DNA of 20,520 bases, from positions 1 through 20,520 of the IMG/VR virus record IMGVR_UViG_3300027649_000283; one strand, given 5' to 3'. The translations under genes and the position numbers were made by a program. Positions 2,184 to 20,476 of the stretch are shown piece by piece. Under the pieces are notes generated by a model that made no database searches, was not told the origin of the DNA, and saw only the letters and a list, made by a program, of their open reading frames with translations. Position 1 is the first letter of the stretch. Each line of letters begins with the position of its first letter. The stretch comes from a virus.

Positions 2184-3152
2184 ATGAGTAGAAAAGAAAA
2201 CTTCATAGATTGGTTTGCGTGGTCGCTGGAACTCAAGGACTGTGATCCGGCAATTCACCTGACCAACTATTTGTTTGATAGGTTCGAACATAATCTCGAG
2301 CAAAAGATTTGGATTGCTTGGATCTATGGGACCACCTATCATCTTCCAACAACTTGGGTTATTTGGAATGAGTTCCCCGACATGGAACTCGTTGGTACAA
2401 AGAGACTCGAGGATTGGAACAACGAAAATTATAAGAGATTAAGATACCAGACCGACACTAAGTGGAACAAAGGACATCTTCCTTCTCAGTTTATTTCATA
2501 TAAGAACTGGGTCGGGGATCGATCACAACGTGAAGCATTTTCTGGATTCCTTAAAGGGAGTCGTACAGAAAACTTTGACATGGTATGGAATGAGGTAAAA
2601 TCTAAATTCCATAAATTTGGTCGATACTCGACCTGGTTCTACCTTCAGACTCTAAGAGATTGTTGCAAGTTTCCAATCGATGCTTCTTCTCTAATGCTCG
2701 AGGATTACTCTGGCTCTCGTTCACATCGTAATGGCCTATGCTATGCGCTCGACAAACAAGATTGGATAGACGAGAAGCTAGATAAGAATCAGTTAGACTT
2801 TCTTAACAAAGGTGCTACTGACATTATTACAGAAGCCAAGGAACGTCACCCACACTTAGACTTTGAATACTTTGGAATGGAAACCTGTCTATGCAGTTTC
2901 AAGAAACTCTTTAGAAAAACAAATGGAAGATATCTAAGTTATTATCTCGATCGTCAGGCTGAAGAGATTACAAAGGTACAGAGTGATGGCTGGCACGGAA
3001 TAGACTGGAAGCCACTCTGGGATTTCAGAACAGAAACTTTAAATAAAAAGACCTTGACTAATAGGATAGATAAGAGTAAAATGAGTATATTCCTTTCCTC
3101 GGGCATCATTGATTACATGGAGATTTTTAGTGAAGAATTACGTTCTACCTAA
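2184..3152 (+). CDS. Putative amino acid:DNA transferase (aGPT-Pplase-like)
   Basis: A protein of 322 residues with motifs that I recall from the alpha-glutamyl/putrescinyl thymine pyrophosphorylase families, one clade of which was shown to act as an amino acid:DNA transferase replacing the (pyro)phosphate on 5-hydroxymethyluracil. Visible landmarks are YGTTYHLPTTWVIWNEFPD, RLRYQTDTKW, FHKFGRYSTWFYLQTL, the basic/serine stretch SGSRSHRNGLCYAL, and a late CSFKKLFR with YYLDRQ. The assignment comes from memory of the family pattern and from context (kinase and TET/JBP enzyme nearby), not from a search. ATG 2184 follows an in-frame GTG (2181). No Shine-Dalgarno sequence is present, and the promoter -10 ends only 9 nt upstream. 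It overlaps the dioxygenase gene by 23 nt. If the family call is wrong, it remains a conserved-looking alpha-helical protein of unknown role. Confidence 0.55.
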   Translation: MSRKENFIDWFAWSLELKDCDPAIHLTNYLFDRFEHNLEQKIWIAWIYGTTYHLPTTWVIWNEFPDMELVGTKRLEDWNNENYKRLRYQTDTKWNKGHLPSQFISYKNWVGDRSQREAFSGFLKGSRTENFDMVWNEVKSKFHKFGRYSTWFYLQTLRDCCKFPIDASSLMLEDYSGSRSHRNGLCYALDKQDWIDEKLDKNQLDFLNKGATDIITEAKERHPHLDFEYFGMETCLCSFKKLFRKTNGRYLSYYLDRQAEEITKVQSDGWHGIDWKPLWDFRTETLNKKTLTNRIDKSKMSIFLSSGIIDYMEIFSEELRST

Positions 3153-4428
3153 GATAGATTCAGAAGAAGTTGTCGGTACATTTGTCGATAAGTCTCACTA
3201 TGATACTTTGGTCGACTCTGACTGTGATGGATATAGGAAAGATGTAATCAATACACTAGATGAATCTAATCTGCTCTTCCGGTTCAGAAAGAATATCTTT
3301 TCTCTCGAGGAGCAGAAACTTGCATATCGAGGTCTTTCTCCTGCAGCAACACCATCTCAGAATAGAGGAATGGCCGCTGGTCCAAAGGGAGAGAAACTAG
3401 GGAACAGAGATTGGGTAACTGAGTTTCAAATTGAAATCCTCGAGACTCTTGCTCGGGAAGAGTCAGGAAGTCTATTCGACGAAGATCCAATCAAAGAGAT
3501 CATCAAGAAGTATAGTTTGGGGAATACTGAATCTACACGTGGCCTTGTCTGGCTTCGATCAGAGATTCAGAAAGACTATGGAAGTTATGATGGGTTCTTT
3601 GATAAGTGGTTCTCTGCCATCAAGAAGGCACCAAAGGAAGAGCAAAGAAGCCAGGCAAGAAAGATCATTGATAAGTATATCTCTGATACGAACTATGCCA
3701 ATGCCGTAAATTCTGGCATTGCTGGTTACTTTGGAAGGTATCCACGTATCCCCTATAAGAGAGCAACGGCATATACTGAGAAAAATAAAGATCTCTTTGA
3801 GATGAGCTTCCCGTTTCTAAAGACGCTTGATTCTAAATTCAAAGAGCTAGTTCCAGAAAGATATTCTAATCAAAAGAAAATGGCAGATAAGCTAGACCCC
3901 AGGTTTAGAGTTTCTGATACGGTGTTTACGACTATTACTGTTAATAAAAACTTCAGAACTGCGGCACATAGGGATGCTGGCGATTTAACGACTGGGTTCT
4001 CGAATCTATCAGTTCTAACTGATGGAACCAAGGACTACCAGGGAGCACATCTTGTACTTCCAGAATATCGTGTTGCAATTGACCTTCGCCCTGGCGATCT
4101 ACTACTAATCAACAATCATGAAGCGATTCATGGTAATACTGAACTGATCGGCGACAAGGACATGGAAAGAATTTCTATCGTCTGTTACTTTAGAGAGGAC
4201 ATGCTAGTTGCTGGATCTTGGGAGTATGAAGCACTTCGAAGAAATTATGTCGACGAGAGGAGACTTAATCAGAAGCACAAGCTCTGGACTAAACTCTGGA
4301 ATGGAATTTCTCCAGGTATGTGGGCAGAATCAGAGTGGAGTCAATACCTGACTGAACATGGTCTTACTGATGAGAATGGCGATCTATCTAAATCTAAACA
4401 AGCAACACTTGAGGAGTTATTCGCGTGA
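3130..4428 (+). CDS. TET/JBP-family Fe(II)/2-oxoglutarate DNA dioxygenase
   Basis: The enzyme should oxidise the 5-methyl group of thymine or 5-methylcytosine in DNA. The catalytic double-stranded beta helix lies in residues ~260-355: HRD (His280, Asp282) and IHGN (His334) are the iron ligands, and Arg347 in ERISIV would bind 2-oxoglutarate. TAAHRDAGDLTTGF and RPGDLLLINNHEAIHGN match the TET/JBP pattern far better than generic prolyl hydroxylases or AlkB. A region of about 200 residues precedes the core and contains SQNRGMAAGP (77-86), the segment usual in phage TET/JBP proteins. GTG 3130 is chosen because GGAG (3119-3122) lies 7 nt upstream; the TTG at 3109 has no such site. The gene overlaps its neighbours on both sides (23 and 4 nt). 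Whether it acts on T or 5mC cannot be read from sequence; no cytosine methyltransferase is in the window. Confidence 0.85.
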   Translation: MKNYVLPKIDSEEVVGTFVDKSHYDTLVDSDCDGYRKDVINTLDESNLLFRFRKNIFSLEEQKLAYRGLSPAATPSQNRGMAAGPKGEKLGNRDWVTEFQIEILETLAREESGSLFDEDPIKEIIKKYSLGNTESTRGLVWLRSEIQKDYGSYDGFFDKWFSAIKKAPKEEQRSQARKIIDKYISDTNYANAVNSGIAGYFGRYPRIPYKRATAYTEKNKDLFEMSFPFLKTLDSKFKELVPERYSNQKKMADKLDPRFRVSDTVFTTITVNKNFRTAAHRDAGDLTTGFSNLSVLTDGTKDYQGAHLVLPEYRVAIDLRPGDLLLINNHEAIHGNTELIGDKDMERISIVCYFREDMLVAGSWEYEALRRNYVDERRLNQKHKLWTKLWNGISPGMWAESEWSQYLTEHGLTDENGDLSKSKQATLEELFA

Positions 4429-4877
4429 CAACTAGAAACCAAAGACACCATAACGGCCATAACGGAAAACGAGGACATCATAACGAAGATGGACGATATT
4501 TAAGTACAGATTTAGATGGAAACTCAGTTGTAAAACTTATATGGCTTACGCATATCGCAAAAAATGGAAAGAGTTTCTACAAGGGATATTTTCCTTATAG
4601 TTGGAGCTATGTTGAATCAGGCTTGCAAGGAAAGAGTGATCGGGACTTGCACGCTCTCGCAGGATATTATCATAGGGATTATACCACAGCAGCTTGGAAT
4701 ATGTGTTGTAAAAACTATAAAGAACATGGCATCTGGGGATCTGATGCTGATGTAGAGAGGGCAAACGAAGCCGCAATTTTGCCAGGATATACCAAAGGCG
4801 TTGACGATGTTCATAAACGTAAATATAATAAAAAACTGGAGTTTGATGGTAATACCCTATGTGCGTTATTTAAATGA
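4425..4877 (+). CDS. Unknown protein with His/Asn-rich N-terminus, in the modification cassette
   Basis: A 150-residue protein that I do not recognise. It starts at GTG overlapping the previous TGA (GTGA), with a strong GAGGAG at 4411-4416 spaced 8 nt, so translation is well supported. Residues 1-32 are rich in His, Asn, Gly and Arg (RHHNGHNGKRGHHNEDGR) and look disordered. The body has many aromatic residues (LIWLTHIAKNGKSFYKGYFP, SWSYVE, YYHRDYTTAAWNMCC) and two adjacent cysteines. There is no signal peptide or membrane segment. It sits between the TET/JBP oxygenase and the P-loop kinase with 4-nt overlaps on each side, so a role in the same pathway is likely: an accessory DNA-binding subunit, a further modifying enzyme or a metal-binding factor. 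No function is claimed. Confidence 0.7.
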   Translation: MTTRNQRHHNGHNGKRGHHNEDGRYLSTDLDGNSVVKLIWLTHIAKNGKSFYKGYFPYSWSYVESGLQGKSDRDLHALAGYYHRDYTTAAWNMCCKNYKEHGIWGSDADVERANEAAILPGYTKGVDDVHKRKYNKKLEFDGNTLCALFK

Positions 4878-5452
4878 AAGTCATAGCCATCGGTGGCAAT
4901 CCAGGCTCGGGTAAGTCCACTCTAATGAAGAAAATCCTTGAGCTGATCGGTGCCTCTAAGGATTCAAAGCAGCTCTATGAGTTGGTTCCTGGACATACGG
5001 CTGGTCCATTGATCACTGCCTATCATCCAAACATAATCGTACTCGGTAAGTATGATGAAGACGTTGGAGTCTTTGGTGGAACAGATAAGATGTCAATGGC
5101 AGTGATGCCCAAGGCAATGGAGTTTCTCAAGACCAAGCCAGCCGATGTAATTATCTTCGAGGGAGATCGTTTATTTGCCGCATCCTTCTTAGAGTTCTGT
5201 ACTGAGATTTCTGATCTATCGATCATTCATCTTGAAACTACCAAGGATATTAGAGAACAGAGATATAGAGACCGTGGTTCGAATCAGAACAAAACTTGGC
5301 TCGAAGGTCGCGAAACTAAGATCTCAAATATCATGACAAATATGATGTTGATGGATTATGTAACAAGCCTTCCTAACAATACCATCGAGGAACAAGCTGA
5401 GATCATATCTTTGGTACAAACCAAAATTAAGGATAAACATTATGCCAACTGA
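4874..5452 (+). CDS. P-loop kinase, likely 5-hydroxymethylpyrimidine DNA kinase
   Basis: A compact 192-residue kinase. Walker A is GGNPGSGKST (residues 7-16) directly after the first strand. A Walker-B-like strand reads DVIIFEGDRLF, and an arginine-rich lid region follows (REQRYRDRG, then TWLEGRETK). The EGDR motif and WLxGRxTK segment resemble phage 5-hmdU DNA kinases, which phosphorylate the hydroxymethyl group on DNA so that it can be displaced. Beside a TET/JBP dioxygenase this role is attractive. General alternatives are a nucleotide or polynucleotide 5'-hydroxyl kinase. The start ATG overlaps the previous stop by 4 nt (ATGA) and no clear Shine-Dalgarno is present, so translational coupling is likely. 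The kinase fold is sure; the DNA substrate is inferred. Confidence 0.75.
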   Translation: MKVIAIGGNPGSGKSTLMKKILELIGASKDSKQLYELVPGHTAGPLITAYHPNIIVLGKYDEDVGVFGGTDKMSMAVMPKAMEFLKTKPADVIIFEGDRLFAASFLEFCTEISDLSIIHLETTKDIREQRYRDRGSNQNKTWLEGRETKISNIMTNMMLMDYVTSLPNNTIEEQAEIISLVQTKIKDKHYAN

Positions 5453-6101
5453 AATTAGCATAGCAAATATAGCATTATATGATATTCAGAAATCATCTAT
5501 TCGTAAATGGAAAGAATCTTCTTCTGAAAAATTAAGACAAGATTATCCCATCCTAGAAAAAAATAATTCAGTATTCATCGACCTTGGAGTATTTGATGGA
5601 AATTGGTCAAAGCAGATCCTCGATAAATATCCGAATTCTCATGGGATTGGATTTGAGCCCATAGCCTCACAATTCAATATTGCAAAAAATATTCTCACTA
5701 CTCCTAGATATTCTCTACTAAATTTTGCTGCGGGTGAAAAGGCAGAAAATGTTATTATTTCTTTAGAAGCACAAGGATCTTCTTCGCATAAAAAAACAGA
5801 ACATAGTGAGTTATGTAATAAGATTAAATTTACAGATTTTATCAGAGAAACTGATTTAATCGATAATTCTGTAAATATCGATCTTCTCAAGATCAATATC
5901 GAGGGTGATGAATTTTCTCTACTCCTTGATCTGATAGACTCTGGAATGATCACTAAGTTTACAAATATACAAGTGCAGTTTCATCCCTTTATCGAAGGAG
6001 CCGAGGAGATGTATCGCGGGATCAAGAATGAGCTGGATAAAACTCATAGAACCACATATAGCTATCCCTGGATTTGGGAAAATTGGGAACTAGCCTCCTA
6101 A
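5442..6101 (+). CDS. FkbM-type SAM-dependent methyltransferase
   Basis: A 219-residue Rossmann-fold methyltransferase. Motif I is VFIDLGVFDGNWS (residues 44-56), an acidic residue for the ribose is in GFEP (70-73), and the FkbM hallmark strand is DLLKINIEGDE (147-157). FkbM enzymes usually O-methylate sugars or other small groups. The gene overlaps the kinase gene by 11 nt and has AAGGA at 5429-5433, 8 nt before ATG. It closes the modification cassette, since a promoter region follows. It could methylate the finished base modification, or a sugar or other product unrelated to DNA. Base composition is locally more AT-rich than the kinase gene, which may reflect separate acquisition. Confidence 0.75.
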   Translation: MPTEISIANIALYDIQKSSIRKWKESSSEKLRQDYPILEKNNSVFIDLGVFDGNWSKQILDKYPNSHGIGFEPIASQFNIAKNILTTPRYSLLNFAAGEKAENVIISLEAQGSSSHKKTEHSELCNKIKFTDFIRETDLIDNSVNIDLLKINIEGDEFSLLLDLIDSGMITKFTNIQVQFHPFIEGAEEMYRGIKNELDKTHRTTYSYPWIWENWELAS

Positions 6102-13388: not shown

Positions 13389-13799
13389 ATGAAGAAAATA
13401 TACTCCAAAGTAGAGCCAGATAAGCTCCTTCACATCGTCTATCGACTCGACGAAATGAAGTCTGGTAGAGAAGATCTGATCTCTCCCAACAATTTCCTTC
13501 AGCTATCTGCTCTGAAGATGCCCGAGGGAAAGACATTCAAACCTCATCATCACATCTGGAAAGCTTCTCCAATTTCTTGCATTGCTCAAGAGTCTTGGGT
13601 AGTTATTTCAGGAAAGGTCAAGGTCACATATTATGATCTTGATTTATCGATTGTCGACGAAGACATCTTATTGCCTGGCGATGTATCGATAACTCTTGAG
13701 GGAGGACACAATTACCTCTTCCTCGAAGATTCAGTTGTATACGAATATAAAACTGGTCCATATACTGGAATTGAAAACGATAAGGTGCAATTTGGCTGA
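13389..13799 (+). CDS. Cupin-fold protein of the sugar/acyl cluster
   Basis: A 136-residue single cupin domain. The metal-binding first motif is seen as FKPHHHIWK (His53-55) followed by Glu68 in AQESWVVISGKVKV, and the second as PGDVSITLEGGHNY (His107). It ends EYKTGPYTGIENDK. Such cupins occur in nucleotide-sugar clusters as epimerases, ketoisomerases or binding proteins, and also as regulators. GGGA (13378-13381) is 7 nt before ATG. It opens an eight-gene run and overlaps the next gene. Whether it is an FdtA-like isomerase or a structural cupin cannot be decided; the fold is fairly clear. Confidence 0.75.
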   Translation: MKKIYSKVEPDKLLHIVYRLDEMKSGREDLISPNNFLQLSALKMPEGKTFKPHHHIWKASPISCIAQESWVVISGKVKVTYYDLDLSIVDEDILLPGDVSITLEGGHNYLFLEDSVVYEYKTGPYTGIENDKVQFG

Positions 13800-14496
13800 T
13801 TATAATATTCGGGGTGGCCTCGGAACTCAAATTTTTTCCTTTCTTACCTGCTATGCAATTGCAATTGAGAATAAGGAAACAGTAGATACTGTGTTTTTCA
13901 ATGGCGGTAATTATATCCAAGACAAAAGTATCATTAAGGATATGGATAGAATTTTTATCTATGACATTCTGGAATTTTGCAATTCGGTCAATATACCTAA
14001 GATTATTCTTGTGAGTGGGAATAACAAAACACTGCCTTTCAAGAATCCCAATGCAGCACTTCTCAGAAAACATTGGTTTGAAATAATGAAAAATATTAAA
14101 CTTAAACGTCTCACAGAACAAACAGAAGAAGTTATTGCTCATATTCGCGGAACAGATCGCGCCCTTGTTAATCCAGAAAGATTTCTTAATCCATCAAGAT
14201 TTGATTTTATTGGAATGTGTCAAAGCGCCATATCAGAAGATATTGATATCTGTAAAAGATTAATGATCGATCCCAATACAGACACATTAGAGGATTGGTA
14301 TAGAGTTCTAAATGCCAAGGCTGTACTCGGAGGATATTCGACATTTACACTACTTGCAGGTGCACTCAATCCTAATTTAAAATTGACTATTATTTCTAAA
14401 GAAAAATCTGATAATTCTAAATTGATTCCCGATGAAGAGTGGAAAAATTTAGAACTATTTGTCGAGATGTTTCCTAATATTAGTTTCTATAGATAG
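13792..14496 (+). CDS. GT11-like (fucosyltransferase-type) glycosyltransferase
   Basis: A 234-residue protein with RGGLGTQIFSFLTCYAIA at its N-terminus, close to the GGLGNQ(L/M)F motif of alpha-1,2-fucosyltransferases. AHIRGTDRA matches the HxRxxD donor-binding motif, and LGGYSTFTLLAGAL resembles the C-terminal S/TxFS motif. GT11 enzymes use GDP-fucose, and a GDP-mannose 4,6-dehydratase gene lies downstream, which fits a GDP-6-deoxysugar donor. The start is unusual: TTG 13792 with AAGGTG (13782-13787), overlapping the cupin gene by 8 nt. The farther in-frame ATG (13696) would add 32 residues without domain character inside the cupin gene. Confidence 0.7.
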   Translation: MADYNIRGGLGTQIFSFLTCYAIAIENKETVDTVFFNGGNYIQDKSIIKDMDRIFIYDILEFCNSVNIPKIILVSGNNKTLPFKNPNAALLRKHWFEIMKNIKLKRLTEQTEEVIAHIRGTDRALVNPERFLNPSRFDFIGMCQSAISEDIDICKRLMIDPNTDTLEDWYRVLNAKAVLGGYSTFTLLAGALNPNLKLTIISKEKSDNSKLIPDEEWKNLELFVEMFPNISFYR

Positions 14497-14507
14497 TGAG
14501 ATCTGTT

Positions 14508-15407
14508 ATGGGGATTAGATTCTTAGGCGTTGGTAAGTACCTTCCGCCAACAATTGTAAGAAATGAAGACATATCATCAAGCCCTGACTGGGTTCGAAAG
14601 AATCTTGGTATGAATGAACGTCATATCGAGTATGTCTTAGAAACAAGCGATATGGCTGTTTGTGCAGCACAAAATGCCTTGGCTTCTGCCAAACTAGAAG
14701 CAAAGGATATCGATGTTATTATCCTCGCTACATCAACTCCAGATATGATGATTCCCTCAACTGCATCTATTGTTCAAGGAAAGTTAGGAGCCAAGAATGC
14801 TTTTGCCTTCGATGTTTCTGCCGTTTGCTCTGGGTTTGTATATGCTCTCTACTTGGCCAAGAATATTCTCGAGAATGATTCTTGTAAGAAAATACTAGTT
14901 ATTGCATCAGAGAAATATTCTATGATAACAGATTGGAATGATAGAAATTGTGTTTATTTTGCCGATGGAGCTGGAGCAGTAATTGTTGAAAATAATTCAG
15001 CAAGATTTGTAAGCCACCTCTATACAAATGGTGAATTTTCCAATTACTTTACTACTAAGAGTGCAAATGATAAGTTCAAAATGCAGGGGAGAAAGATCCA
15101 TGAGTATGCAGTTGATGCAGTATCAAGATCTATAGAATCATATTTTAGAGAAGATATCGATAACATCAAGTGGGTAATTCCCCATCAACCAAATATTCAT
15201 ATTCTAAGAGAGATATCTAAAAAGACAAATATCCCATTCACAAAGTTTGTTGTTACTCTTGATAAATTCGGAAACACTGCTGGTGCTACGATCCCCATGG
15301 CCCTTGATGTGATCAAGGATCAAATTAATGATGGTGATTTGATTTTGATGGCAGCAGTTGGTGCAGGAATGACTGGCGGAACTATTTTAATAGAATGGAA
15401 GTCATGA
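14508..15407 (+). CDS. 3-oxoacyl-ACP synthase III (KAS III, FabH-like)
   Basis: A 299-residue thiolase-fold enzyme that condenses an acyl-CoA with a malonyl-ACP or similar. The full catalytic triad is present: Cys107 in FDVSAVCSGF, His227 in VIPHQPNIHIL and Asn257 in KFGNTAGATIPMAL. NERHIEY near residue 37 and YFADGAGAVIVE are family landmarks. Length is slightly under E. coli FabH (317). I prefer ATG 14508; GTG 14496, overlapping the previous stop, would add 4 residues. A phage is unlikely to need a second FabH for bulk lipid. With the dehydrogenase and acyltransferase next to it, synthesis of a short acyl group for a sugar is more likely. Enzyme class is sure, product is inference. Confidence 0.9.
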   Translation: MGIRFLGVGKYLPPTIVRNEDISSSPDWVRKNLGMNERHIEYVLETSDMAVCAAQNALASAKLEAKDIDVIILATSTPDMMIPSTASIVQGKLGAKNAFAFDVSAVCSGFVYALYLAKNILENDSCKKILVIASEKYSMITDWNDRNCVYFADGAGAVIVENNSARFVSHLYTNGEFSNYFTTKSANDKFKMQGRKIHEYAVDAVSRSIESYFREDIDNIKWVIPHQPNIHILREISKKTNIPFTKFVVTLDKFGNTAGATIPMALDVIKDQINDGDLILMAAVGAGMTGGTILIEWKS

Positions 15408-16030
15408 AATATTTAATTTTCGGTCCTCGGTCTGGGTTGGCCAAGGAAGTGATAATTCATATGACAACGAATCATTGTTCAGTCAATACTTCTGATATTG
15501 ATATTACCAATTCCTGTGAAGTTGATGAGGCAGTTTATCGAATTGAACCAGATGTTGTTATAAATTTTGCAGCTAGAAATATAGATAGTGCTGCCCACAA
15601 GGTCAGTGATGATAATGTAAAGAGACAAATAGACACCAATATTATTGGAAATATTAATGTCACATCTTCAGCTCTGAGGCATATGCGTTCTGGGGGAGGA
15701 ACTATCATTCTTCTTTCTTCTGTATTGGCAATGAAGCCAGAATTCGGAACGAGCATTTATGCTGGATGTAAGGGATTTATTGAATCTTATATTAAGACAG
15801 TTGCCCATGAAAATATGGGAAAGGTGAATGTCGTAGGAATAGAGCTTGGATATTTTGATGGTGGGTTGACTCATAGAATTTCATCAGATATAAAAGAAAG
15901 AATAATTTCTTCTATTCCAGCCAAAAGACTCGGGACTATTTCCGAACTTTATAACACGATTGAATATATTATCAGGACACCGTATATTTCTGGTACGACT
16001 ATAAAGATCAATGGGGGATTATATGCCTAA
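15404..16030 (+). CDS. Short-chain dehydrogenase/reductase
   Basis: A 208-residue Rossmann oxidoreductase. The dinucleotide loop is FGPRSGLAKE (residues 6-15), a variant of GxxxGxG. NFAAR (55-59) replaces NNAG. The active site is SS (105-106) and YAGCK (Tyr119, Lys123). It overlaps the KAS III gene by 4 nt (ATGA); ATG 15395 would add three residues. A ketoreductase acting on a 3-oxoacyl product of KAS III would give a 3-hydroxyacyl chain, e.g. 3-hydroxybutyryl, for N-acylation of a sugar. It could instead act on a sugar. The family is clear. Confidence 0.85.
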   Translation: MKYLIFGPRSGLAKEVIIHMTTNHCSVNTSDIDITNSCEVDEAVYRIEPDVVINFAARNIDSAAHKVSDDNVKRQIDTNIIGNINVTSSALRHMRSGGGTIILLSSVLAMKPEFGTSIYAGCKGFIESYIKTVAHENMGKVNVVGIELGYFDGGLTHRISSDIKERIISSIPAKRLGTISELYNTIEYIIRTPYISGTTIKINGGLYA

Positions 16031-16541
16031 TCCAGAATTGTTTATGGATAAAGATGTATCGATAAAACATTTCACTGATTGTGTGTTTGGTAAATATGTT
16101 GCTATTGATAAGGGGTTTTATTCAACAGTCATTATGGATATTGGGGATTGGGTTCACCTGGCTCCATATACATCTGTTATAGGAGGAAGGGAAGGGATCT
16201 TTAAGATGGGTCACTTTTCAGGTCTTTCGGCTGGAGCAAGAGTGATTTGTTCTGGGGATGATTTTACTTCTGGGGCACTCATGAATCCTCAGGTTCCTAT
16301 TAAATATAGAGAGCCCATTGATGCTCCTGTTATATTTGAAATGTTCACATGCCTTGGAACAAATTCTGTAGTGATGCCGGGAGTTACATTGGCTGTTGGT
16401 TCTGTTGTTGGTGCATCTTCTGTTCTAACCAAAAATACAGAACCATGGACCATATATGTGGGATGCCCAGCCAAGCCAGTTAAAGTTCGCCCTAAATATA
16501 AAGCGATTGAGTATGCGAGGGAATTGGGATATGAATGTTGA
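16023..16541 (+). CDS. Left-handed beta-helix (hexapeptide) acyltransferase
   Basis: A 172-residue protein with degenerate hexapeptide repeats across the middle (VIMDIGDWVHLAPYTSVIGG, then MGHFSGLSAGARVICSGDDF) and a C-terminal set VMPGVTLAVGSVVGASSVLTKN. It ends YVGCPAKPVKVRPK, typical of sugar O- or N-acyltransferases of the WbbJ/PglD kind. GGGGGA (16013-16018) precedes ATG 16023, which overlaps the dehydrogenase stop by 8 nt. It probably transfers the acyl group to the 4-amino sugar made downstream. Acetyl-CoA as donor is the simple alternative. Confidence 0.82.
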   Translation: MPNPELFMDKDVSIKHFTDCVFGKYVAIDKGFYSTVIMDIGDWVHLAPYTSVIGGREGIFKMGHFSGLSAGARVICSGDDFTSGALMNPQVPIKYREPIDAPVIFEMFTCLGTNSVVMPGVTLAVGSVVGASSVLTKNTEPWTIYVGCPAKPVKVRPKYKAIEYARELGYEC

Positions 16542-17301
16542 AAAGTATATAGAAGATGGTTATATTATAGTTGAAACTGATTTGATTGATAGCGATATTG
16601 ATCTTATCAATTCTGAGGTTGATCGGTGTCTTACTATAGAGGACAAAAAGACTCAAAGTAATTATCAATATACAGAATTTCCTCGTTTGTTCGAGGCATG
16701 GAAACAAAGTAAACCAATCTATAATCTTTGTAAGAATAAGAATATTATCGATGCCATCGAACTTCTTTATGGAGAAAAGTGCTTTCCATTCTCGACAATA
16801 AATTTCACAGGACCATCTAATCAGCCTCTCCATTCTGATACCATTCACTTTAATACAATTCCTCAAAATCGTATGTGTGGTGTTTGGGTTGCTCTCGAAG
16901 ATACAAACGCAGACAATGGTACTCTTTCAATTGTTCCAGGAAGTCATCTTTGGAGTACACATGACTATCAGAGTATTGGGCTTCCCCATCCAGATACAAT
17001 TGTAGATGGAGAGAAAGAAAATTATAGAAAATATGAAGAGTTCATCATTAGTCTTGTCAAAGAGAATAATGCTCAGGCTGTTCCTATTTGTTTAAAAAAA
17101 GGCCAGGCATTAATTTGGGAAGCTAACTTGCTTCATGGTGGAACTTTTACTGAATTCAAGAAGTCAAGAAAAGTACAAGCAATTCATTACTTTCTCGAGA
17201 ATTCCGAAACATACTATCATCCGATGTTTTCGAATCTTGAAAAAGAGGATTATGCCTACAAGTGGTGTAATGATGGAAAAAGAATGGAGGACTATATATG
17301 A
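16531..17301 (+). CDS. PhyH-type Fe(II)/2-oxoglutarate dioxygenase
   Basis: A 256-residue dioxygenase of the phytanoyl-CoA hydroxylase group. The iron ligands are His101 and Asp103 in PLHSDTIHFNT and His202 in ANLLHGGTF; Arg213 in KKSRKVQAIHYF would bind 2-oxoglutarate. GVWVALEDTNADNGTLSIVPGSH is the family core. It differs from the TET/JBP enzyme elsewhere in the window and should act on a small molecule such as an acyl chain or sugar. It overlaps the acyltransferase gene by 11 nt. Hydroxylation of the acyl group before or after transfer is a reasonable guess. The start at 16531 is chosen over 16456 because upstream sequence lies inside the preceding gene. Confidence 0.85.
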   Translation: MNVEKYIEDGYIIVETDLIDSDIDLINSEVDRCLTIEDKKTQSNYQYTEFPRLFEAWKQSKPIYNLCKNKNIIDAIELLYGEKCFPFSTINFTGPSNQPLHSDTIHFNTIPQNRMCGVWVALEDTNADNGTLSIVPGSHLWSTHDYQSIGLPHPDTIVDGEKENYRKYEEFIISLVKENNAQAVPICLKKGQALIWEANLLHGGTFTEFKKSRKVQAIHYFLENSETYYHPMFSNLEKEDYAYKWCNDGKRMEDYI

Positions 17302-17358
17302 ACATCATATTTAAACCTTCAGTTGCGATAAACCACAAATGGTATATGGAGTTAGATA

Positions 17359-18087
17359 ATGAATCCTGAAAATAAAATTGTATATAATTCTTGGCCAGTT
17401 GGGAAATTGCCCAAGGAGTTTCAACGTCCAGAACTAGATCAGATTAAAGCACTTGGATATGACTGGAAAGATCCGCGTGACGTCGTGAAGATGTTCGAGG
17501 AAAAGGTCGCCAAGTTCTCTGGATCAAAATATGCAGTTGCCATAGATTGCTGTTCTCATGGATTGTTTCTGGCAATAAAGGCATTGGAAAGAAAAATAAA
17601 ACCAATCCATAAAGAAAAGATCATCATTCCAAGTAGAACCTATGTCTCTGTTCCCATGCAGATTGTCCATGCTGGATTTGAAGTTGGATTTGAAGATAGA
17701 AAATGGTCTGGTATATATCAACTATATCCCTATGACATCTGGGACGGTGCTGTTCGATGGACCAAAGGTATGTACATCGGAGGGCTTCATGTGGTTTCTT
17801 TTCAAATTAAGAAAAGAGTTCCAATTGGTAGGGGTGGAATGATTCTGACTGATTCAAAAGAAGATTATGATTATCTATGCCGTGCACGTTATGATGGAAG
17901 AAATCTCGATGTAGAATACATGACAGATAACTATGAATATGGAATGGGTTGGCACTATTACATGACACCTGAGGATGCTGCTCGTGGTATTATTCTGATG
18001 GATCAAATTCCCGAAGAAAATGAGGATACGGGAGGAAGTAATAATTATTCTGATATATCTCAAGTGAGGAGTTTCTTACATGGCTAA
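17359..18087 (+). CDS. Short DegT/DnrJ-type sugar aminotransferase
   Basis: A 242-residue PLP enzyme. AVAIDCCSHGLFLAIKAL is the phosphate-binding segment, DIWDGAV carries the Asp (129) that contacts the pyridine nitrogen, and VVSFQIKKRVPIGRGGMILT supplies the Schiff-base lysine (Lys152). The usual family length is 360-400, so the C-terminal small domain is missing. The frame ends cleanly and overlaps the next gene by 8 nt, so this is not obviously a broken gene; short forms also occur in cyanophages. GGAG (17348-17351) is 7 nt before ATG. With the GDP-mannose dehydratase it could make GDP-perosamine or a related amino sugar. Function as a full aminotransferase is uncertain because of the missing domain. 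Confidence 0.8.
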   Translation: MNPENKIVYNSWPVGKLPKEFQRPELDQIKALGYDWKDPRDVVKMFEEKVAKFSGSKYAVAIDCCSHGLFLAIKALERKIKPIHKEKIIIPSRTYVSVPMQIVHAGFEVGFEDRKWSGIYQLYPYDIWDGAVRWTKGMYIGGLHVVSFQIKKRVPIGRGGMILTDSKEDYDYLCRARYDGRNLDVEYMTDNYEYGMGWHYYMTPEDAARGIILMDQIPEENEDTGGSNNYSDISQVRSFLHG

Positions 18088-19054
18088 AAAAGCACTAATC
18101 TCTGGAGTCTCTGGACAAGATGGCTCATACCTAACAGAGCTCCTGCTCGAGAAGGGATATGATGTTCATGGTATCGTTCGAAGGCATTCTGTAGCTGAGG
18201 ATCAGTCTACTCGACTGTTGCACACTAATAGTTCGATCTCGACATATTATGGTGACATGCTCGACGAACATTCGATATATAGAATTGTTCAAGAAGTCAA
18301 ACCCGATGTAGTCTATAACCTCGCAGCTATGTCGCATGTTCGAATTTCATTCGACATTCCTGCATTTACAATCAAGACTAACTCTCTTGGTGTTCTGAAT
18401 ATTCTCGAAGCTGTTCGAACTATTGTTCCCGAAGCTAAATTCTACCAGGCATCTTCCTCTGAAATGTTTGGGAACTCTGTTGATTCTGATGGGTTTCAGA
18501 GATTGACAACTCCAATGAACCCAGTTTCGCCCTATGGTTGTTCTAAGGTTATGGGGTATAATCTAGTAAGGCACTATCGAAATGCTGCATATAAGATGCA
18601 TGCATGTAACGGAATTCTATTCAATCATGAGTCGCCTCGACGTGGTACAAACTTCGTCACTAATAAGGTTGTCAAAACTGCCGTTCAGATCAAGAAGGGT
18701 CTGAAGAAAAATCTCGAACTCGGTAACATGGACTCTTCTCGTGATTGGGGTCATGCATATGACTATGTCCGCGCAATGTACAAGATCGTAAATCATGACA
18801 CTCCTTCTGATTGGATTGTATCGATGGGAGAAAGTCATACTGTTCGTGAAATGTGTGAGTTCGTATTCTCTGAACTCGGTATGAACTATCAAGATTATGT
18901 CATTCAAAATCCAAAGTACATGAGAGCAGAAGAACTGAAGTATCTCTGTGGGGATTCTCTTCGCACTCGGAAAGAACTTTCTTGGACACCGACATATACA
19001 TTCAAGAGCATGCTACAGCAAATGATAGAACACTGGGATCGGAATCTAAACTAA
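18080..19054 (+). CDS. gmd: GDP-mannose 4,6-dehydratase
   Basis: A 324-residue extended SDR converting GDP-mannose to GDP-4-keto-6-deoxymannose. The NADP loop is GVSGQDG (9-15) and VRRHS follows. The active site has SSSE (125-128) and SPYGCSK (Tyr152, Lys156), then FNHESPRRGTNFVTNKV and SRDWGHAYDYV typical of Gmd. The catalytic Thr of the E. coli enzyme (STSE) is Ser here, a conservative swap. GAGGAG upstream of ATG 18080 is well placed. The product would feed the aminotransferase (perosamine route) or a fucose route, although no GDP-fucose synthase is seen here. Confidence 0.92.
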   Translation: MAKKALISGVSGQDGSYLTELLLEKGYDVHGIVRRHSVAEDQSTRLLHTNSSISTYYGDMLDEHSIYRIVQEVKPDVVYNLAAMSHVRISFDIPAFTIKTNSLGVLNILEAVRTIVPEAKFYQASSSEMFGNSVDSDGFQRLTTPMNPVSPYGCSKVMGYNLVRHYRNAAYKMHACNGILFNHESPRRGTNFVTNKVVKTAVQIKKGLKKNLELGNMDSSRDWGHAYDYVRAMYKIVNHDTPSDWIVSMGESHTVREMCEFVFSELGMNYQDYVIQNPKYMRAEELKYLCGDSLRTRKELSWTPTYTFKSMLQQMIEHWDRNLN

Positions 19055-19085: not shown

Positions 19086-19700
19086 ATGCTCACTTCAGAA
19101 CAATTAAAAAAATGTCTCCCCAAAGCAGCGCAGAAGAATATCGAGCTATATCTCGACCCAATTAACAAAGCATTCGAGGAGTTCGAAATCAATACTCCCA
19201 AGAGAATGGCTGCGTTCATTGCTCAGGTCGGACATGAGAGTGGTCAGCTCAACTTCGTTCGTGAGAATCTAAACTACAAGGCAGAAAGTCTTACAAAGGT
19301 ATTTCGCAAATATTTCCCAACTCTCGAGGAAGCCCAGAAGTATGACAGAAACCCAGAAAAGATTGCCAATAAAGTCTATGCCTCGCGCATGGGCAACGGT
19401 GATGAATCTTCTGGTGATGGATTTAAGTATCGTGGTAGAGGCCTGATCCAGGTTACTGGAAAAAGTAATTACGAATCTTGCGGAAAGTCGCTTGGAGAAG
19501 ATTTAAATAAAACGCCAGAATATCTAGAAACTCCTGATGGCGCAGTTCGTTCTGCAGCATGGTTCTGGAATAGAAATAAACTAAATGTCAAGGCAGATGC
19601 CAGCGATACTAAGGGCATCACTAAGACGATCAATGGTGGGTTTAATGGCCTCGAGGAAAGAGAGCATCTATATGATCTAGCCATTGAGACATTAAGCTAA
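19086..19700 (+). CDS. GH19-type endolysin
   Basis: A 204-residue glycoside hydrolase 19 domain expected to cleave peptidoglycan at lysis. The catalytic Glu51 is in QVGHESGQL, followed by RENLNYKAESL (Glu60) and the hallmark YRGRGLIQVTGKSNY (115-129). AAWFWNRNKLN and TKTINGG complete the domain. No signal peptide or membrane anchor is seen, so release would need a holin, which was not found in the window. GGAGA (19076-19080) precedes ATG. The length matches a single-domain phage lysin. Confidence 0.9.
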   Translation: MLTSEQLKKCLPKAAQKNIELYLDPINKAFEEFEINTPKRMAAFIAQVGHESGQLNFVRENLNYKAESLTKVFRKYFPTLEEAQKYDRNPEKIANKVYASRMGNGDESSGDGFKYRGRGLIQVTGKSNYESCGKSLGEDLNKTPEYLETPDGAVRSAAWFWNRNKLNVKADASDTKGITKTINGGFNGLEEREHLYDLAIETLS

Positions 19701-20014: not shown

Positions 20015-20476
20015 CTATTGTAGCTCTATCGCTAGAGCCAAAGATCTCGGAAAGTTAAGATCGAGCTGACGAGAAGTATCGTGTTCTGGAACCATTCTGA
20101 TGATGTTTTGATCCAGAGTTGTTAGATTATTTTCACGATCAATAAACTTATACTCTACCTTGACTGGACCGAATGGCGAGATGTGATCGACAATGTCAGA
20201 AACATTAAACTCTCCACAACTATAGACATCGAGTTGTAGTAGATTGGGATCGACCTCGTCCCATGTATGCAATGCAATGTGCGAAGTCTCGATAATTCCC
20301 ACACAAGTCAATCCACGATTTCCCTTTACATTACAATACTGAGCAAATGGCCCCATCATAATCTTCATTCCAACCTTGTCAACCAATTCAGAAAACCAAG
20401 TTTTTATAAGATGTTCATTCTTTGGTGCATTTAGGACTTCGGCTCTTACAATTAAATGCTTATGGACAAGTAACAT
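20015..20476 (-). CDS. speD: S-adenosylmethionine decarboxylase-like pyruvoyl enzyme (SpeD family)
   Basis: A 153-residue homologue of the self-cleaving AdoMet decarboxylases. ETSHIALHTWDE corresponds to SESHxxIHTWPE in bacterial SpeD: the Ser that becomes the pyruvoyl group is kept, as are the following His residues and the Cys of LDVYSCGEF. The residue before the serine is Thr rather than Glu, which I recall as common in phage versions. KGNRGLTCVG, the start MLLVHKH, and YKFIDRENN also match the phage family. It would supply decarboxylated AdoMet for spermidine; some phage and bacterial SpeD homologues have changed to decarboxylate amino acids. It is the only minus-strand gene here and converges on the preceding gene with a 6-nt gap. 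AGGAG at 20488-20492 (minus strand) lies 11 nt before ATG. Confidence 0.85.
   Translation of the reverse strand: MLLVHKHLIVRAEVLNAPKNEHLIKTWFSELVDKVGMKIMMGPFAQYCNVKGNRGLTCVGIIETSHIALHTWDEVDPNLLQLDVYSCGEFNVSDIVDHISPFGPVKVEYKFIDRENNLTTLDQNIIRMVPEHDTSRQLDLNFPRSLALAIELQ

Follow-up and report, generated by a model that had tools for sequence, protein, structure and literature searches.

The TET/JBP gene and its neighbours

The window, that is, the whole stretch of 20,520 bases analysed here, is also the complete IMG/VR record, and genome-wide questions were put to its relatives instead. Clamp loader and RegA genes are present in the window, which therefore belongs to a T4-like phage. The open reading frame at 3130-4428 on the plus strand has a GTG start, encodes 432 amino acids and is open at exactly those ends; an in-frame TTG at 3109 is a possible alternative start, and the relatives begin at the residue which matches the GTG. 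Its product matched the Pfam family Tet_JBP (PF12851) with 89.9 bits in a profile search, above the cut-off of 34.9, and the PHROG family phrog_24024 with 540 bits. It is confirmed as a real and intact TET/JBP dioxygenase, and chance is excluded.

The relatives used for comparison were 198 phage TET genes, comprising 87 of the window type, 72 of the Melnitz type, 38 of a short form (HTVC112P/P12024L type) and the gene of S-CBWM1, and their proteins were aligned together with one Coopervirus protein. The cultured phages DLP_6, Cr30 and C48C1 encode relatives with 46-53% identity. The motifs HRD (H280-R281-D282), IHGN (333-336) and RISIV (347-351) were described as intact in the original prediction, and the alignment bears this out. 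By analogy with TET2 we take H280, D282 and H334 to be the iron ligands and R347 to be the 2-oxoglutarate arginine; all four are conserved in 87 of 87 window-type proteins and the active site is kept, while Q replaces H280 in one of the 38 short-form proteins.

An AlphaFold model of the protein, built on an alignment of 54 phage sequences including that of the window, has a mean pLDDT of 92.1. Its best solved match is human TET2 (4nm6; Z 20.9, rmsd 3.9, 259 residues aligned), and it also matched CMD1 (7cy6; Z 20.2, rmsd 3.8, 292 aligned), NgTet1 (5cg9; Z 18.3, rmsd 3.9, 225 aligned) and CcTet (7w5p; Z 17.4, rmsd 3.2, 223 aligned). Residues from about 90 to 180 of the model form a mostly helical insert, which sets the long form apart and is missing from the short-form proteins. 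A DNA-recognising role had been proposed for the first ~200 residues, SQNRGMAAGP included, as part of the phage form; this was not upheld, as the alignment with TET2 runs from residue 1 and R79 and G84, within that motif, are common to all three phage TET types. The PDB sequence search with the single protein gave nothing useful, and with the TET alignment instead it matched TET2 and CcTet. Pfam matches in the frame at E up to 0.1 were Tet_JBP and a weak TauD and nothing else, with neither the J-DNA binding domain of JBP1 nor the SWI2/SNF2 domain of JBP2 found at that level. Misleading names occur for these genes in public records (KF301602, KU682439, MG450654, MN698246, KF493881 and NC_055860), such as 'SNF2 DNA repair protein' and 'queuine tRNA-ribosyltransferase' for TET and 'terminase small subunit' for the kinase.

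The transferase and kinase neighbours noticed earlier are both real family members. The amino acid:DNA transferase of the aGPT-PPlase2 type (ADDT; 2184-3152, plus strand; PF18724 83.6 bits, phrog_3271 206 bits) shares its last 23 bases with the start of TET, and 376 phage records matched its family. A small open reading frame (4425-4877, plus strand), for which no family match was found in Pfam or PHROG, overlaps TET and the kinase by 4 bases each. The P-loop kinase is of the 5-hydroxymethyl-base kinase type (Ploopntkinase3; 4874-5452, plus strand; PF18751 49.6 bits) and is in one family with gp4 of Coopervirus JAMaL (240 bits).

Three further plus-strand genes stand upstream of ADDT. The class II glutamine amidotransferase (GATase_6; 94-774; PF13522 42.9 bits) has kept Cys2, and in its cluster from 30 window-type loci C2, R80, N102-G103 and D126 are conserved. 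The gene at 761-1636 encodes a putative amidoligase of glutamine-synthetase-like fold, to which PF12224 gives 17.4 bits, below cut-off; 7 of the 18 members of its cluster match this family (best E 9.6e-8), and its model (pLDDT 90.9) weakly but consistently matches glutamine-synthetase-like ligases, with GshF, YbdK and glutamine synthetase as best Foldseek matches (E 5e-4 to 1e-3). The GNAT acetyltransferase (1623-2129; PF13673 54 bits) has a frame open from 1485, its start near 1623 being set from the overlap with the amidoligase. Downstream of the kinase a candidate FkbM-type methyltransferase (5442-6101, plus strand; PF05050 18 bits, below cut-off) was found, and we are unsure whether it is part of the modification system.

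In the rest of the window, a sugar or surface gene island at 13389-19054 includes an ACP synthase III family gene, a PhyH oxygenase, a DegT aminotransferase and a GDP-mannose dehydratase. It is followed at 19086-19700 by a GH19 chitinase-family protein (PF00182 38.5 bits), probably an endolysin, and at 20015-20476 on the minus strand by a gene of the S-adenosylmethionine decarboxylase family (PF02675 53.6 bits; NCBIfam score under its cut-off), which may point to polyamines.

C5-methyltransferase and ADDT genes in the phage TET types

The pyrimidine oxidised by TET-family enzymes is usually a guess. The gene content of whole phage records was surveyed with Pfam models. For the window type 50 records were selected by length from 80, which were the best 80 of 577; for the Melnitz type 25 of 71 and for the short form 25 of 36 records were selected, also by length. 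Most of the records are fragments, members of one TET clade do not count as independent cases, and the Fisher values calculated for these counts take no account of relatedness. In a 62-row tree each of the window, Melnitz and short-form types takes up one side of a branch (supports 99/93, 100/98 and 97/87); the tree holds phage types only and carries a long-branch warning, above all for JAMaL. The Melnitz-type TET has about 25% identity to the window type.

The C5-cytosine methyltransferase family PF00145 was not found in any of 57 window-type records (0/50 and 0/7, the window itself counted), which include the complete phages DLP_6, Cr30 and C48C1 and several records of more than 120 kb. Its absence from the window, stated in the original prediction, is thus confirmed and extends to the 56 other records. 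The same family is present in 26 of 26 Melnitz-type records (25/25 and Melnitz-3), and this fits the earlier statement that phage 5mC-oxidising TET is paired with a phage C5-methyltransferase. The methyltransferase lies within the fetched flank of 66 of the 72 Melnitz-type loci; the other six start at or just before TET, so that it stands beside TET in 66 of 66 loci with upstream DNA. No PF00145 match was found in 27 short-form records (25 and 2) or in S-CBWM1. The two phage clades thus form a clean genomic contrast in the records searched, the C5-methyltransferase being present always or never, and the question of substrate can be put to a direct test in cultured phages such as Cr30, DLP_6 and JAMaL.

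ADDT (PF18724) is distributed differently from the methyltransferase. It was matched in 25 of 57 window-type records (20/50 and 5/7); among the 30 of 50 with no match many are short, and four exceed 98 kb. It was matched in 0 of 26 Melnitz-type records (0/25 and 0/1), in 0 of 72 Melnitz-type loci, and in 2 of 27 short-form records, where the matching frames are 714 and 723 amino acids long.

The kinase does not separate the types. Its cluster, obtained like all neighbour clusters by single-linkage BLAST on mechanically called frames, is present in 33 of 87 window-type loci and in 28 of 72 Melnitz-type loci, which are linked to the C5-methyltransferase, and it was rejected as a pointer to thymine. 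Of the earlier argument that the neighbours favour thymine, the part resting on ADDT stands and the part resting on the kinase does not. An active-site reading of the substrate was also rejected. Both phage types have Asp at +3 (D285). The position at +8 from the 2-oxoglutarate arginine faces the pyrimidine in TET2, where it is His. All 87 window-type proteins (R355 in the window) and all 38 short-form proteins have Arg there, and 65 of the 68 Melnitz-type proteins with this column filled have Asp; the Arg is no pointer to thymine because the 5mC enzyme CcTet has it too. The +8 residue separates the two phage types without naming the base.

Other gene sets were seen beside TET in these types. 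In Melnitz-3 (L011, 4010-8090) the C5-methyltransferase, TET and a Ploopntkinase3-like kinase lie side by side, which suggests a 5-hydroxymethylcytosine kinase. In HTVC112P (L008, 6973-9195) and related short-form loci the order is ParB, TET and FkbM-type methyltransferase, and 26 of the 38 short-form loci have the methyltransferase cluster close to TET; such a set could O-methylate a hydroxymethyl base.

The substrate of the window enzyme

According to Lee et al., the ADDT family of ViI-like phages attaches amino acids to 5-hydroxymethyluracil. Genes that could supply this base were compared in 14 cultured ADDT phages, picked for taxonomic spread from the 376 matching records. Twelve of them have no TET, and all 12 have a divergent protein of the thymidylate synthase (TS) family (PF00303, 27.7-59 bits), as dUMP hydroxymethylases would be; two of these proteins were checked and fall far below the NCBIfam thymidylate synthase cut-offs. 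The two phages with TET, Coopervirus JAMaL and Heath, have no TS-family protein, and no C5-methyltransferase was found in any of the 14. The panel is small and its members are related, most of the 12 being Ackermannviridae or Vibrio phages like them. In the window no TS homologue was found, among six other window-type records only Cr30 has a TS-family gene, and 36 further window-type records gave no TS-family match. The Cr30 gene passes several NCBIfam thymidylate synthase cut-offs and is therefore an ordinary thymidylate synthase. The search for a C5-methyltransferase or a dUMP hydroxymethylase in the rest of the genome, proposed earlier, was in this way carried out on relatives and found neither.

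TET and the TS homologue of dUMP-hydroxymethylase type thus look like alternative makers of 5-hydroxymethyluracil. In the simplest reading TET stands in for the hydroxymethylase as the source of this base, and thymine would therefore be its substrate. Together with ADDT and the absence of PF00145 from 57 records, this alternation supports the leaning to thymine of the original prediction, and we infer, with a probability of roughly 0.8, that the window TET is a DNA thymine dioxygenase which feeds a hypermodification by the kinase, ADDT and tailoring genes. In the proposed order of steps, TET would use Fe(II), 2-oxoglutarate and O2 to convert thymine in phage DNA to 5-hydroxymethyluracil after replication, the P-loop kinase would add a phosphate to the hydroxymethyl group, and ADDT would swap the phosphate for an amino acid or amine. 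The group so attached may finally be trimmed or capped by the amidotransferase, amidoligase and GNAT protein, through amidation of a carboxylate or acetylation of an amine for example, and the modified DNA may serve as a shield against host nucleases.

Phage DLP_6 agrees with such a role. It has TET and neither PF00145 nor PF00303; its DNA is listed as restriction enzyme resistant in the available text of a review (PMC8228603), which leaves thymine as the obvious 5-methylpyrimidine. The resistance agrees with modified DNA, although no Pfam ADDT match was found in DLP_6. Some of the recognition sites tested contain neither A nor T, as the accessible part of the study of this phage indicates (HpaII, SmaI, ApaI, HaeIII and AciI; PMC5349666), and, according to the available text of another paper, the T-modified DNA of phi W-14 also resists some enzymes with A/T-free sites (PMC6449724). 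In literature on phage thymine hydroxylases, mostly other than subscription papers, no assay or base analysis of a window-type enzyme was found, and in the same literature on amidoligase or inositol with hypermodification no test of one was found.

The points against thymine include the 30 of 50 window-type records with no ADDT match, the kinase shared with the C5-methyltransferase type and the best solved matches of the predicted structure, which are cytosine-oxidising enzymes. The window TET could instead be a 5mC oxidase, with 5mC coming from the host or from a C5-methyltransferase elsewhere in the incomplete genome and with ADDT and the kinase acting on 5-hydroxymethylcytosine. The phage TET reportedly characterised by Burke in 2021 acts on 5mC, the C5-methyltransferase-linked TETs are accompanied by the same kinase cluster, and the Pfam TAGT glycosyltransferase is found with both TET types. 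We consider this explanation unlikely: PF00145 is missing from all window-type records searched, among them three complete phages, and ADDT was never found with the C5-methyltransferase type. It is more improbable still that the enzyme oxidises both thymine and 5mC and that the phage mainly uses the thymine product. The fold relative CcTet was crystallised with 5mC DNA and with 6mA DNA, which points to broad substrates in the family, and the Asp at +3 is kept in both phage types, but no phage gene was found which would specifically use a cytosine product; at the same low probability, such dual oxidation would fit the observations just as thymine oxidation does. It is very improbable that the enzyme regulates or attacks the host through its DNA or RNA, or that its substrate is something other than DNA, since the TET-specific fold spans residues 1-377 of the model with DNA complexes of TET2 and NgTet1 among its best matches and the linkage to DNA-modification genes is repeated, even if the PhyH-family oxygenase of the sugar island indicates that the phage uses such enzymes otherwise too.

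Related systems and interchangeable downstream cassettes

Sets of TET, ADDT and kinase genes have already been predicted in print, and the window adds a member; Iyer et al., whose paper is cited in PMC6449724, are said to have predicted such TET-linked hypermodification sets in 2013. The Mycobacterium phages JAMaL and Heath are like the window in having TET beside ADDT and a Ploopntkinase3 kinase and neither a C5-methyltransferase nor a TS-family gene. Their gene order ParB-TET-ADDT-kinase recurs with a far diverged TET (27.8 bits to Pfam). Unlike the window, JAMaL has no amidotransferase or amidoligase annotated in its first ~10 kb, and the ParB-like gene of the Coopervirus set was not found among the window genes scanned. 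The ParB-TET-aGPT-PPlase2-kinase set of Rhodococcus phage Tonitrus is given as a likely thymidine hypermodification system in the available text of PMC11955845. Less expected are the amidotransferase-amidoligase cassette and the sister-phage version in which it is swapped for a glycosyltransferase.

The ADDT of the ViI-like Ackermannviridae is homologous to that of the window (about 28-29% identity over about 90%). In these phages the TS homologue makes hydroxymethyluracil as a nucleotide, whereas in the window it would be made in DNA by TET. ViI DNA bears an aminoethoxy-modified thymine, as stated in the accessible part of PMC6449724. The Melnitz-like 5mC systems share the TET superfamily and often the kinase family with the window, but differ in the C5-methyltransferase beside TET, the lack of ADDT and the Asp for Arg at +8. 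The kinetoplastid proteins JBP1 and JBP2 (base J) share with the window TET the TET/JBP domain and, as proposed here, the thymine substrate, but Pfam found no J-binding or SWI2/SNF2 domain in the latter. A precedent for an amide bond on a phage DNA base is the CmoA-CmoX-CmoY carboxymethylcytosine system, some ligases of which carry a glutamine-hydrolysing domain according to the available text of PMC12783734; as described there, that system acts on cytosine with an asparagine-synthetase-like ligase, whereas the window has a separate amidotransferase and a putative glutamine-synthetase-like ligase beside ADDT.

Downstream genes were compared in 38 window-type loci, namely the window and every locus in which the sequence continues for 6 kb or more past TET. 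Of these, 19 have ADDT, all with the kinase. The amidotransferase and amidoligase occur in 11 loci, always paired and always with ADDT, and the gene set of the window is that of these loci in a different order. The cluster of the TET-associated glycosyltransferase (TAGT, PF20691) occurs in 11 loci, one of which also has ADDT, and inositol-1-phosphate synthase with a HAD-like gene occurs in 5, all with ADDT. Among the 31 tree rows of the window, short-form and S-CBWM1 types that have an ADDT or TAGT state, this state changed at least 9 times, and with the swapped cassettes one TET therefore appears to feed more than one kind of finishing chemistry. The transferred amino acid might reasonably be guessed to undergo amidation, given that Cys2 is kept and that the amidoligase model matches glutamine-synthetase-like ligases, weakly but consistently.

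It is tentatively proposed that the window-type clade forms a sizeable set of DNA thymine hydroxylases from phages, combining a constant TET with swappable cassettes, namely one for amide capping, one with inositol-phosphate synthase and one with TAGT that would glycosylate hydroxymethyluracil (base-J-like). As one part of this tentative reading, amide capping would consist of amino-acid transfer followed by the amidotransferase, amidoligase and GNAT steps, as in the window. If thymine hydroxylation is true, the enzyme would be the bacterial-virus counterpart of JBP, a possible tool to write hydroxymethyluracil into DNA and a way into further base modifications.

Inositol-1-phosphate synthase lies beside ADDT and the kinase in Cr30 (L006, 13000-16447) and in L023 (8190-11580), and the group added in such loci may be inositol-derived. 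In window-type phages and S-CBWM1, TAGT follows TET immediately or at a short distance, as at L021 8316-9104 and L007 5207-6061, and these loci, which have no C5-methyltransferase, are candidates for a base-J-like base. A 2019 paper states, in the text available, that glucosylated hydroxymethyluracil had not yet been reported in phages (PMC6449724), and the TAGT-carrying window-type phages without a C5-methyltransferase are candidates for it.
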